A program made the translations under genes and the position numbers. Below, in pieces: positions 2,414 to 62,786 of a stretch of DNA of 64,000 nucleotides. Position 1 is the stretch's first letter. Every line of letters begins with the position of its first letter. The notes beneath the pieces are model-generated. The model searched no databases. It worked only from the letters and a program-made list of their open reading frames with translations, and had not been told where the DNA came from. The DNA lies in assembly GCF_000174015.1 (NCBI RefSeq), contig NZ_ACFE01000002.1:124001-188000 (forward strand), in the 5' to 3' direction. Source of the stretch: Lancefieldella rimae ATCC 49626. GTDB taxonomy: Bacteria > Actinomycetota > Coriobacteriia > Coriobacteriales > Atopobiaceae.

Positions 2414-5203
2414 GTGGCAGACGATACACATACGCACGATAACGATATACCAAACGATATCGAAGATCGTGATTTTGATAATCAAGATGAGCGCGAAGAC
2501 GAATATGACGAGAATGACGGAGAGCTCGACGAGTCCAGTGAGGATGAGTTTGACGCCGAGACCGGTGTAAGCCTTGCCGGAGCCACCGTGTCTCATACCA
2601 TTACAGATGAGGCGGGAACGCGTCTTGATCTCTCCGACATTCATGGCGGCACGCTTAAGCCAACTGACATGGCCGACGAAATGCGTACGTCGTTTTTGGA
2701 GTATTCCATGTCCGTCATCGTTGCCCGCGCACTTCCGGATGTGCGTGACGGACTTAAACCAGTACACCGCCGCATTCTCTATGCTATGAACGAAGCTGGC
2801 ATTACTCCTAATAAACCGCATAAAAAGTCCGCATGGGCCGTCGGTGAAGTTATGGGTAAGTATCACCCACATGGCGACTCTGCCATTTATGATTCCATGG
2901 TACGTATGTCGCAGGACTTCTCGATGCGCCTGCCACTCATTGATGGTCACGGTAACTTTGGCTCCATTGATGGCGATCCGCCAGCGGCCATGCGTTATAC
3001 CGAGGCTCGTCTGACTCGCTCCGCCATGGAGATGCTTGCCGACCTCAATAAAAATACCGTTGACATGCAGCCAAACTACGACGAGGCCCTGACGGAGCCT
3101 GCCGTACTTCCTGCCCGTTTTCCAAACCTCTTGGTAAACGGTTCCTCGGGTATTGCCGTTGGTATGGCCACCAACATCCCGCCGCACAATTTGGGCGAGG
3201 TTACCGAAGCCGTATGCATGATGATTGACAACCCCGACGTCACCACGGAAGAGCTCATGGAAGTGCTTCCCGGACCTGACTTCCCAACGGGTGGCATTAT
3301 CATGGGAACGCAGGGTATCAAAGACGCATACGAAACCGGACGTGGCTCCATTACGGTTCGCGCTAAAGTGCACGTTGAATCTACCAAAAATGGTCGCCAG
3401 CGCCTTGTTGTGACAGAGATTCCGTATCAGGTTAACAAAGGTCTTTTGCAAGAAAAGATCGCCCAAGCGGTTAACGAGAAAAAAATAGAGGGAATCTCCG
3501 ACATGCGCGACGAGTCAAACCGCAAGGGTATGCGCATTGTTATCGACCTTAAGCGTGGAGAAGTTCCTCAGGTAGTTCTTAACAACCTCTATAAGCGCAC
3601 ACAGCTCCAGTCCAATTTTGGCATCATTGACCTGGCCTTGGTTGACGGTGTGCCTCGCACGCTTTCCCTGCGTGAGATCCTGCGCTGCTACATTGACCAT
3701 CAAATTGACGTGGTGCGTCGTCGTACCGAGTTTGACTTGGATAAGGCGCTCAAACGCGTTCATATCTTGGAAGGCTTGCTGACGGCTGTCGATAATATTG
3801 ACGAGATTGTCCATATTATTCGCAGCTCACAAGACGATGCCGAAGCAAAGCGCCGCATGCATGAGCGCTTTGATCTCGACGACATTCAAGGTGAGGCAAT
3901 TTTGCAGATGCGTCTGCGCCGTCTTACCGGTCTTGCACGTCAAGATCTTGTTGATGAGATTTCTCAGCTTCGTGAAGACATTGCATATTACGAGGATCTT
4001 CTCGCCCACGAAAACAAGATTCTGGCAGTCATTGCAGATGAACTCCGTGATATTTCCAACCGCTTCTCAAATAAGCGCCGTACCCAGATTTCTGACCAGG
4101 ATGTTCAAAATTTGGACGTCGAGGACCTTATCGCTGAAGAAGATATGGTCGTTACCGTTACGCATGCCGGGTATGTAAAGCGCGTCCCCGTTGAGATTTA
4201 CCGGTCTCAGAAGCGCGGCGGTAAGGGAGTTCAAGGCGTTTCTCTTAAAGAGAACGATTTTGTTGAGGAGCTCTTTGTTGCGTCAACGCACGATTACGTG
4301 CTGTTCTTTACAAACTTTGGCAAGGTCTACCGAGTAAAGGTGCACGAGCTTCCCGTGGGAAATCGTACTACCAAAGGAAATGCGATTGTAAACGTTTTGT
4401 CCCTCTCGGAGGGAGAGAAGATCGCGGCTGTCATTACAACTCGTGATTTCCCTGCCGAGAATTATCTGATGTTTGCCACCAAGCAAGGCATGGTCAAAAA
4501 GACCGCCATGTCCGAGTATGACCGTACGCGTAAAGACGGCATCATCGCCATTAATCTCAAGCAGGGCGATGAGTTGGTTAATGTCCGTCGTGTTCATCCG
4601 GGCGACAAGGTAATCCTCTGCTCCTCTGATGGCAAAGCGATTCTCTTTGACGAGTCACAGGCTCGCGCCATGGGTCGCGGTACTTCAGGGGTACGCGGTA
4701 TTATGCTCAAGGGTGAAGCAACTATGCTTGGCATGGAGATTACAAATGGCAACGGTGACCTCTTTGTTATTACCGAGAAGGGCTACGGAAAGCGTACGGC
4801 GGTATCCGAGTATCCTGAGCATAAGCGTGGCGGACAAGGTGTCTTTACCATTACAATGACGGCCAAGAAAGGCAAGTTGGTTGCGTGTCGTGTGGTCGGA
4901 CCGCAGCATGAAATCATGATTATGTCTGAGGAAGGCGTTGTTATCCGCGTTAAGGCCGTGGACATCTCCAAGTTGGGCCGCTCAACACAGGGCGTCAAAG
5001 TCATGAATATCGGTGCTGATGACCATGTTTCCGCCATTGCCCGTATGATCGTCCATAAGAAGAAAGCTCCAAAGCATGCGGAAAACCAGGGAATGCTTGA
5101 TTTGGCAGCAGCAGGAGCAAGAGATGCCGACGAAACCGAAGTCGTTGACCTTGGTGATGAGGAAGAGCTCGATGAGTCTTTGATTGACGAGGATGATGAG
5201 TAA
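2414..5203 (+). CDS. gyrA: DNA gyrase subunit A with an acidic N-terminal extension
   Basis: Breakage-reunion subunit of gyrase. The catalytic tyrosine is Tyr195 in [10 protein letters not shown]; the quinolone-resistance region reads [10 protein letters not shown], with Ser156 and Asp160 in the drug-sensitive form. The GyrA box QKRGGKG, which wraps DNA, is present in the C-terminal beta-pinwheel domain. At 929 residues the protein is longer than usual: the conserved [20 protein letters not shown] begins near residue 94, preceded by roughly 70 extra residues very rich in Asp and Glu, and the C terminus is acidic too. The start used is GTG at 2414; an internal ATG at 2669 would remove the extension but has no evident ribosome-binding site. 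Confidence 0.96.
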
Positions 5204-61307: not shown

Positions 61308-61344
61308 AGCGCCTGGCTGCATGTGTGTAGTCAGGCGTTTTTTC
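61308..61344 (+). terminator. Terminator after the DXS-like gene
   Basis: CGCCTGGCT pairs with AGTCAGGCG (one G-T pair), followed by a run of six T. Confidence 0.88.
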
Positions 61345-61461
61345 TAACTGCTTAGGCGTATTTAGTTTTATGAGGGACATCCATTTCAAACTTATCCACA
61401 ATCAAAACTTTAGTGTACAGAGTCAAAGTCATACCGTTCGCGGAAGCGTCTTTCCTGCTAC

Positions 61462-61496
61462 TTGACAAAATTATGCGGGGGGGGGGGGGGTATCTT
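61462..61496 (+). promoter_or_regulatory. Promoter with a 14-G tract between -35 and -10
   Basis: TTGACA at 61462-61467, nine bases, then 14 consecutive G (61477-61490), then TATCTT at 61491-61496. The spacer is 23 bases; eight G would give the ideal 17. The lipoprotein start lies 31 bases downstream. This is the layout of slip-strand phase-variable promoters. Confidence 0.8.
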
Positions 61497-61527
61497 CAAT
61501 GAAATCTGACAGGAAAGGGGATTTGAA

Positions 61528-62232
61528 ATGGGTAGTAATTTTCTTACCCGCCGTTCTGCAGTCAAGGTACTTGGCGGAGCAGGCCTATCAATCTTGGGGT
61601 CTAGTCTCGTAGGCTGTTCTCAGCAAAACGGAAAGAGATTCCCAAAAGTCATTACTCCAAAATCCGTAATTGAAAGCGATCAAAAGACGGTATGGTTTAG
61701 TGGCTTTGAAGAAGATGTTAGTGTAAAGAAAGAGGTATATGGGTTTTTTGTTTTGGGTCAGAATACTGCAGCATACTATGACCTTAATAAGACCCTAACT
61801 ATGGGAGACGTTACACGTATGAGCGATGAGGAACTCGTTAAAAAGGCCACTGAAGATTTTTCGCAATCACCAGAATCCGGTTATTACAAGCTTACATTGC
61901 TTCAAGATAAAACTGGTAATGACGTAGAAGCAGAAACACTAGGCTTCATGGACTACTACTTTGAAAATGGATCAGAAAAGAGCAGCGGGAACATGTTGGG
62001 TATAACTTCTGAAACTAAGAAGTTTGGTACGATATATGATTTCGATTTCGTTGGTTTTACTGAAAAATATGTCTACTGGTCACAAAAAGGACCGCGTGAG
62101 GTCGATCATGAAGATTTTAAGGTCGAAATGGACTCAGAGAGTGGCGGAATGTTCACCCGTATTCCTAAAGGGACAAGTTCAAATTATTCTTTCAAGCTAG
62201 ACTCACTGGATTCTGGAATAGAAGTGAAGTAA
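61528..62232 (+). CDS. Putative lipoprotein of unknown function
   Basis: A 234-residue exported protein. The N terminus has twin Arg (TRRSAVKVLGG), a hydrophobic segment and lipobox (SLVGCSQQ) with the modified Cys at residue 31; both Tat and Sec routes are possible. The mature part is rich in Lys, Glu, Thr and aromatic residues and shows no motif I know. It is more A+T-rich than most neighbours. AAAGGGGATTTGAA precedes ATG 61528. A terminator follows. The poly-G promoter upstream suggests on/off expression, which would suit an exposed protein. Confidence 0.8.
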   Translation: MGSNFLTRRSAVKVLGGAGLSILGSSLVGCSQQNGKRFPKVITPKSVIESDQKTVWFSGFEEDVSVKKEVYGFFVLGQNTAAYYDLNKTLTMGDVTRMSDEELVKKATEDFSQSPESGYYKLTLLQDKTGNDVEAETLGFMDYYFENGSEKSSGNMLGITSETKKFGTIYDFDFVGFTEKYVYWSQKGPREVDHEDFKVEMDSESGGMFTRIPKGTSSNYSFKLDSLDSGIEVK

Positions 62233-62391: not shown

Positions 62392-62541
62392 ATGCTTGTA
62401 TTGGGATTTGACAGTAATTCGCGCCCAATTGAGATGTTCGTAGCGGCTCAAGAAGATGCTTGGGTTATATATCATGCTATGACACCACCAACAAAGAAAT
62501 TTCTTTCAGCCATTAAGCGTGCTCCAAGAAAGGAGATCTAA
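62392..62541 (+). CDS. Short toxin-like ORF, probably an N-terminally truncated toxin
   Basis: A 49-residue frame too short for routine calling. The sequence LVLGFDSNSRPIEMFVAAQE and VIYHAMTPPTKKFLSAI resembles the second half of BrnT/DUF4258-like toxins, in which a strand pair is followed by HA-x and a helix. Full toxins have about 90 residues, and the frame is closed upstream by a stop at 62359, so the first half seems missing. It overlaps the antitoxin start by one base (TAATG) and carries the antitoxin ribosome-binding site AAGGAGAT in its last codons. Family is inferred from pattern only. Confidence 0.5.
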   Translation: MLVLGFDSNSRPIEMFVAAQEDAWVIYHAMTPPTKKFLSAIKRAPRKEI

Positions 62542-62786
62542 TGGGATACAAATTAGCTAACGGAAAGTATTTGTCCGATGATGAAATCGAAAAGATTGCT
62601 GATGAATATGAAAATGATCTTTGGGACGGAGAGCTTGATTTTATCGTTCCCGGCCGTCCTCCTCATCCAAATCAAGAATTGAAGCCGGTGACGGTTAAAC
62701 TCCCTGTGGCGATGCTTCAGGCGATTGCGGCAAAAGGAGTTAATCGCTCAGATTTTATCCGTCGCGCTATTGCAGCTGCGCTATAA
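62541..62786 (+). CDS. Ribbon-helix-helix (CopG-like) antitoxin
   Basis: An 81-residue protein with an acidic N terminus (EKIADEYENDLWDGELDF) and a C-terminal ribbon-helix-helix: the strand KPVTVKLPVAMLQAIAAKG followed by NRSDFIRRAIAAAL. This is the layout of CopG/BrnA-type antitoxins that bind the toxin and their own promoter. AAGGAGATCT precedes ATG 62541, and the start overlaps the toxin-like frame, so the two are translated together. The order toxin then antitoxin fits BrnTA-like pairs. Confidence 0.8.
   Translation: MGYKLANGKYLSDDEIEKIADEYENDLWDGELDFIVPGRPPHPNQELKPVTVKLPVAMLQAIAAKGVNRSDFIRRAIAAAL

Follow-up and report, generated by a model that had tools for sequence, protein, structure and literature searches.

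The lipoprotein gene considered here lies in a 64-kb window of the genome of Lancefieldella rimae ATCC 49626, and a run of consecutive G stands between the -35 and -10 elements ahead of it (Table 1). The question that this locus raises is whether a run placed where its length would set the distance between the two boxes is a switch of gene expression or an accident of sequence. The original prediction was of a phase-variable promoter, and it is supported by the recurrence of the architecture within the class, by a spacing that keeps to 15-20 bp, by a link to genes for exported proteins and by differences in tract length at similar promoters. Our preferred reading, to which we give a probability of roughly 0.77, is a sigma-70-type promoter in which a slippery poly-G tract sets the -35/-10 distance, making it a porA-like, slippage-driven expression switch. 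In adopting it we infer that the promoter is used, that the tract is variable in length within the species, that expression depends on that length and that the switch has a biological role.

Table 1. Features of the poly-G promoter and its surroundings (window coordinates).
Feature	Position	Strand	Basis or detail
Intrinsic terminator of the upstream dxs-like gene	61308..61345	+	14-pair stem, then T run
-35 element TTGACA, perfect consensus	61462..61467	+	sequence
Fixed spacer part AAATTATGC, nine bases	61468..61476	+	sequence
Poly-G tract, 14 G; proposed slippage site setting the -35/-10 distance	61477..61490	+	sequence
-10 element TATCTT	61491..61496	+	sequence
Short leader bearing the ribosome-binding site AGGAAAGGGG	61509..61527	+	sequence
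Gene for the 234-aa lipoprotein, ATG at 61528	61528..62232	+	ORF; twin-arginine signal and lipobox LVGC

Re-reading the sequence bears out the spacing first proposed for this site: nine fixed bases and 14 G place TTGACA and TATCTT 23 bp apart. A homopolymer between recognisable -35 and -10 elements (TTGACA-N9-G14-TATCTT) is what a porA-type promoter has, with the qualification that TATCTT agrees with TATAAT at four of six positions only. Because the dxs-like gene upstream has its own terminator, the lipoprotein gene needs a promoter of its own; the possibility that the tract is a piece of a transcription terminator was rejected, that terminator being a separate structure. A generic promoter scan does not list the poly-G promoter because it takes spacers of 16-18 nt only. 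A transcript starting ~7 nt past TATCTT would have a leader of ~25 nt, with AGGAAAGGGG ahead of the start codon.

The next longest G run in the window is of five bases and the longest C run of six; by a first-order Markov model, the number of runs reaching 14 that is expected per window is 0.0002, both strands counted. The exact tract sequence had no match in viral contigs. A genome-wide search for long tracts, which had been proposed as a check, did find others: the 1.63 Mb of this genome (nine contigs) hold three G/C tracts of at least 10 and six of at least 8, some of them at places other than promoters. One, a 15-C tract (G000, C7:245799-245813; L014, ~3300-3314), lies ~330 bp from a contig end and inside an inverted repeat, TTTTAGAGC...GCTCTAAAA; repeats of the TTTAGTGGTG type occur near it and near a G10 tract, C8:392432, in a ParB-like gene.

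The architecture recurs throughout the Coriobacteriia. Scanning 398 genomes of the class with TTGAMAN{0,25}GGGGGGGGTANNNT (a -35 element, at least eight G, then TANNNT) against the reversed, or mirror, pattern as a control yielded 39 sites in 31 of the genomes, from 24 genera, and no mirror match in any of the 398. The poly-C version yielded two sites in the same set, both in one genome (G055), where the two genes (L275, L276) have a common TTGACAAGGAA-C10-TA. With the -35 box left out, GGGGGGGGTANNNT matched 38 times versus 4 for its mirror in the 140 genomes of the window's family. In other families the enrichment of G8-TANNNT alone is weak (34 versus 25 in f10) or moderate (79 versus 38 in f2; hand tally), so that the looser pattern alone does not argue strongly outside the window's family. 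Counted in the five genomes of the genus, blind to what comes next, G8+ tracts number 15; TANNNT directly followed six of these, at an expectation of 1 in 64 for each. The -35 element of the window and its nine fixed bases are identical at 14 of 15 positions to TTGACAAAAGTATGC in a member of another family (G388), and the fixed spacer part ends in TGC, like all six promoters of the G406 gene cluster described below.

The distance between the boxes is constrained as well. Although the pattern lets the -35 element float over 26 positions, spacers of 15-20 bp are found at 36 of the 39 sites, with a mode of 19 (15 sites). When each genome is represented by one site, 28 of 31 spacers are of 15-20 bp, versus 23% expected under free placement of the -35 element (p ~2e-15).

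The genes behind these promoters are not an average sample. By a crude signal-sequence rule, which missed some evident signals, exported proteins are encoded behind 24 of the 34 sites examined. The same rule classes as exported 14 of the 84 remaining genes of those loci (p = 4e-8 for the comparison) and, in the window, 15 of 50 genes (p = 3e-4). The looser G8-TANNNT set includes a protein with choline-binding repeats (L058), a Cna_B/adhesin P1 protein (L086) and, from the genus of the window itself, adhesins of the Big_8/Collagen_bind/SpaA kind. On contig C70 of G406 (L109-L110), six paralogous large exported proteins are encoded within ~28 kb, each behind its own poly-G promoter (TTGAAA-N9-G10/11-TATCAT or TATTCT), and this cluster is a candidate variable-surface locus. 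At two further loci, L068 (G141) and L084 (G039), a G9 tract lies within the signal-peptide codons of large surface proteins, which suggests a translational (frame) form of switch in the same family. Elsewhere (G001, C2:288170; L100), G10 followed by TATTTA is found beside an apparent CRISPR array, so judged by the repeated reading VAPFTGAWIET.

The product of the window gene was predicted to be exported and lipid-anchored, and its sequence agrees: it begins MGSNFLTRRSAVKVLGGAGLSILGSSLVGC, with a twin-arginine motif and a lipobox (TRRSAVKVLGGAGLSILGSSLVGC). The Tat signal and lipobox give the promoter the exported product that is typical of the porA type, and exposure of the lipoprotein at the surface is a prediction from that signal alone. 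Searches of Pfam, NCBIfam, PHROGs and PDB sequences gave no match to the protein, and no homologue turned up among 100 relatives, plasmids or the genome_contigs collection. Nor was it found in the four other genomes of the genus, in one of which (G004) the flank downstream of dxs differs. No homologue means no orthologous promoter with which to compare the tract. The GC content of the gene is 40.6%, versus 49.4% for the window; it looks lineage-specific and was perhaps acquired. Single-sequence structure prediction was uninformative (mean pLDDT 34.9). Just 3' of the gene, a 49-aa ORF (62392-62541) overlaps an 81-aa ribbon-helix-helix protein (62541-62786) whose matches to BrnA and RHH are weak and fall below cut-off; judged by its layout, the pair (62392-62786) resembles a short toxin-antitoxin system.

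The foremost alternative is that the tract is neutral: in a lineage without MutS the genome would accumulate G runs, and this one chanced to arise between promoter-like boxes and has no regulatory role. MutS1 was not found above cut-off in any of 30 relatives, the window genome included (11 of 14 control genomes were positive), and the matches to NucS were short, sub-threshold or marginal and partial, none of them convincing. These absences suit a neutral origin, as do the tracts of the same genome at non-promoter places (C7:245799-245813, and C8:392432-392441 in the ParB-like gene). However, neutral runs should favour neither an orientation, nor a 15-20 bp spacer, nor exported genes, and the 39 sites, set against none for the mirror and two for poly-C, are oriented, constrained in spacing and tied to export; G/C runs of at least eight are moreover rare in the genus (one to six per genome). 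We consider this explanation improbable. Absence of MutS would favour instability of the tract in this lineage, and would predict high switching rates; in Neisseria, loss of mutS raises the rate of porA switching (PMC3639595).

Somewhat less probable again is a structural role at fixed length, in which a G-quadruplex or a stiff, A-like helix modulates transcription, possibly together with a regulator. A pure spacing model does not need the observed strand preference, with G on the non-template strand (39 versus 2 C), and the tprL tract of Treponema pallidum extends over the -10 region and has its effect with no change of spacing (PMC7864442). Yet the length of the fixed part and that of the tract are correlated at -0.47 in the class set, longer fixed parts going with shorter tracts, and at -0.68 among the cross-phylum matches listed, where the pattern admits at most 19 bp. 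A sum that is conserved while its two parts trade off is the signature of a constraint on spacing.

We hypothesize that the spacing switch operates as follows. Replication slippage would add G's to the tract or remove them; at a spacer of ~17-20 bp, RNA polymerase would use both boxes and the lipoprotein would be made, and at 23 bp, as assembled, it would probably be off or very weak, such that the cells of one clone would differ in their display of the lipoprotein. The window is an outlier among the 39 sites in its 23-bp spacer, and its 14 G are the second longest tract. As this is outside the 15-20 bp range of its relatives, where an off state would also be expected to lie, either the state is unusual or the G count, which comes from one assembly and may be wrong by one or more, is in error. 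In relatives whose fixed part is nine bases long the tract is mostly G9-G11, giving spacers of 18-20 bp, from which we place the ON state at a probable 8-11 G (17-20 bp) and not at exactly 8. The removal of six G, originally proposed to restore a 17-base spacer, would thus give one possible ON state, but with relatives clustering at 17-20 bp a loss of three to six G describes the change better. It is very improbable that the tract is an assembly artefact, much shorter in reality or with a count that is only noise: homopolymers of this length are error-prone and this one is long even for its class, but its flanks are unique sequence inside the 464-kb contig C8, far from both ends (an artefact of a contig end was rejected on that ground), other assemblies of relatives show the same layout, and a miscount would alter the predicted state, not the architecture.

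Tract lengths differ at similar promoters, in all cases between assemblies or paralogues and in none within one clone. Two species of one genus (G410 and G296) have promoter regions identical at 608 of 610 positions with G10 in one and G11 in the other; in a single genome (G111), two promoter regions that are nearly identical carry G16 and G21; and the six paralogous promoters of the G406 contig have G10 or G11. Upstream of orthologous adhesins of the window's genus, the corresponding region reads G10, G8, G8, G5 and an interrupted GGGGAGGGG. The interrupted form is that of the window genome (L272, C5:138759-140159); a second adhesin copy, at a contig start (L270, C6:298-1715), has a frameshift near codon 35.

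The same layout is present beyond the class. Scanning genome_contigs with TTGAMAN{4,10}G9TANNNT, which permits spacers of up to 19 bp, revealed at least 84 distinct sites in Clostridia, Bacilli, Spirochaetes, Proteobacteria and others. Among the matches listed, exported proteins are encoded behind 56 of 84 sites, as compared with 111 of the 388 remaining genes (p = 1e-10), and spacing peaks at 18-19 bp, cut off by the 19-bp maximum of the pattern.

The mechanism is already known from Neisseria, from Treponema and, weakly, from Cutibacterium. In porA of Neisseria meningitidis a poly-G tract likewise lies between the -35 and -10 elements before the gene of a surface protein, and expression is graded by its length: PorA at the surface is high with 11G, ~2-fold lower with 10G and ~13-fold lower with 9G (PMC3639595). 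That system belongs to another phylum and to a host with MutS, and its reported variants have 9-11 G (PMC3639595), whereas the window has 14 G, a Gram-positive lipoprotein and no MutS. Poly-G promoters also precede surface-protein genes (tp0126/tpr) in T. pallidum, where tp0126 is transcribed best at a 17-nt spacing; this organism is a spirochaete, and its tprL tract, unlike that of the window, lies over the -10 region and not in the spacer (PMC7864442). Closer in phylum is HPT_37 of Cutibacterium (Propionibacterium) acnes, a C tract whose position was deduced to be between -10 and -35 and whose forms of 5 or 7 C go with a 2-fold difference in expression; the tract is short, however, its length tracks clades and no switching was shown (PMC4746626). 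Variation of G/C tracts in C. acnes tracks clades, and its authors favour slow accumulation over active modification (PMC4746626); by analogy, this clade-bound variation is a caution against reading our tract as a switch. In Gardnerella, also Actinomycetota but of a different class, ~70% of G/C tracts of at least 8 are upstream of ORFs, some of them for surface proteins, and there is evidence of variation; the accessible part of that report does not describe a promoter-spacer architecture (PMC11287997).

For the Coriobacteriia, our search found no earlier description of homopolymer phase variation in the literature, subscription papers being mostly outside our reach, and as far as we searched the mechanism appears to be new to the class. 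The original prediction knew of none for a coriobacterial lipoprotein, and our literature search indeed gave none, but the case is not an isolated one: it belongs to a class-wide set. We would give even odds to the broader proposal that the Coriobacteriia have an undescribed, class-wide contingency system for surface proteins, in a lineage apparently lacking MutS, that is strand-specific (G, not C, on the non-template strand) and has an optimum at ~19 rather than 17 bp. The occurrence of the same layout before exported proteins in Clostridia, Bacilli, Spirochaetes and other groups suggests a widespread and under-recognised form of surface variation in gut bacteria.

Variation at the surface governs the encounters of oral and gut commensals and opportunists with antibodies, phages and neighbours. 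A ready list of candidate switch promoters now exists, 39 of them in 31 genomes of the Coriobacteriia and including the six-promoter tandem set of G406, and a conserved adhesin of the window's genus bears a related poly-G promoter. Existing reads from isolates and metagenomes could show whether the length of these tracts differs within strains, and whether the surface changes accordingly.
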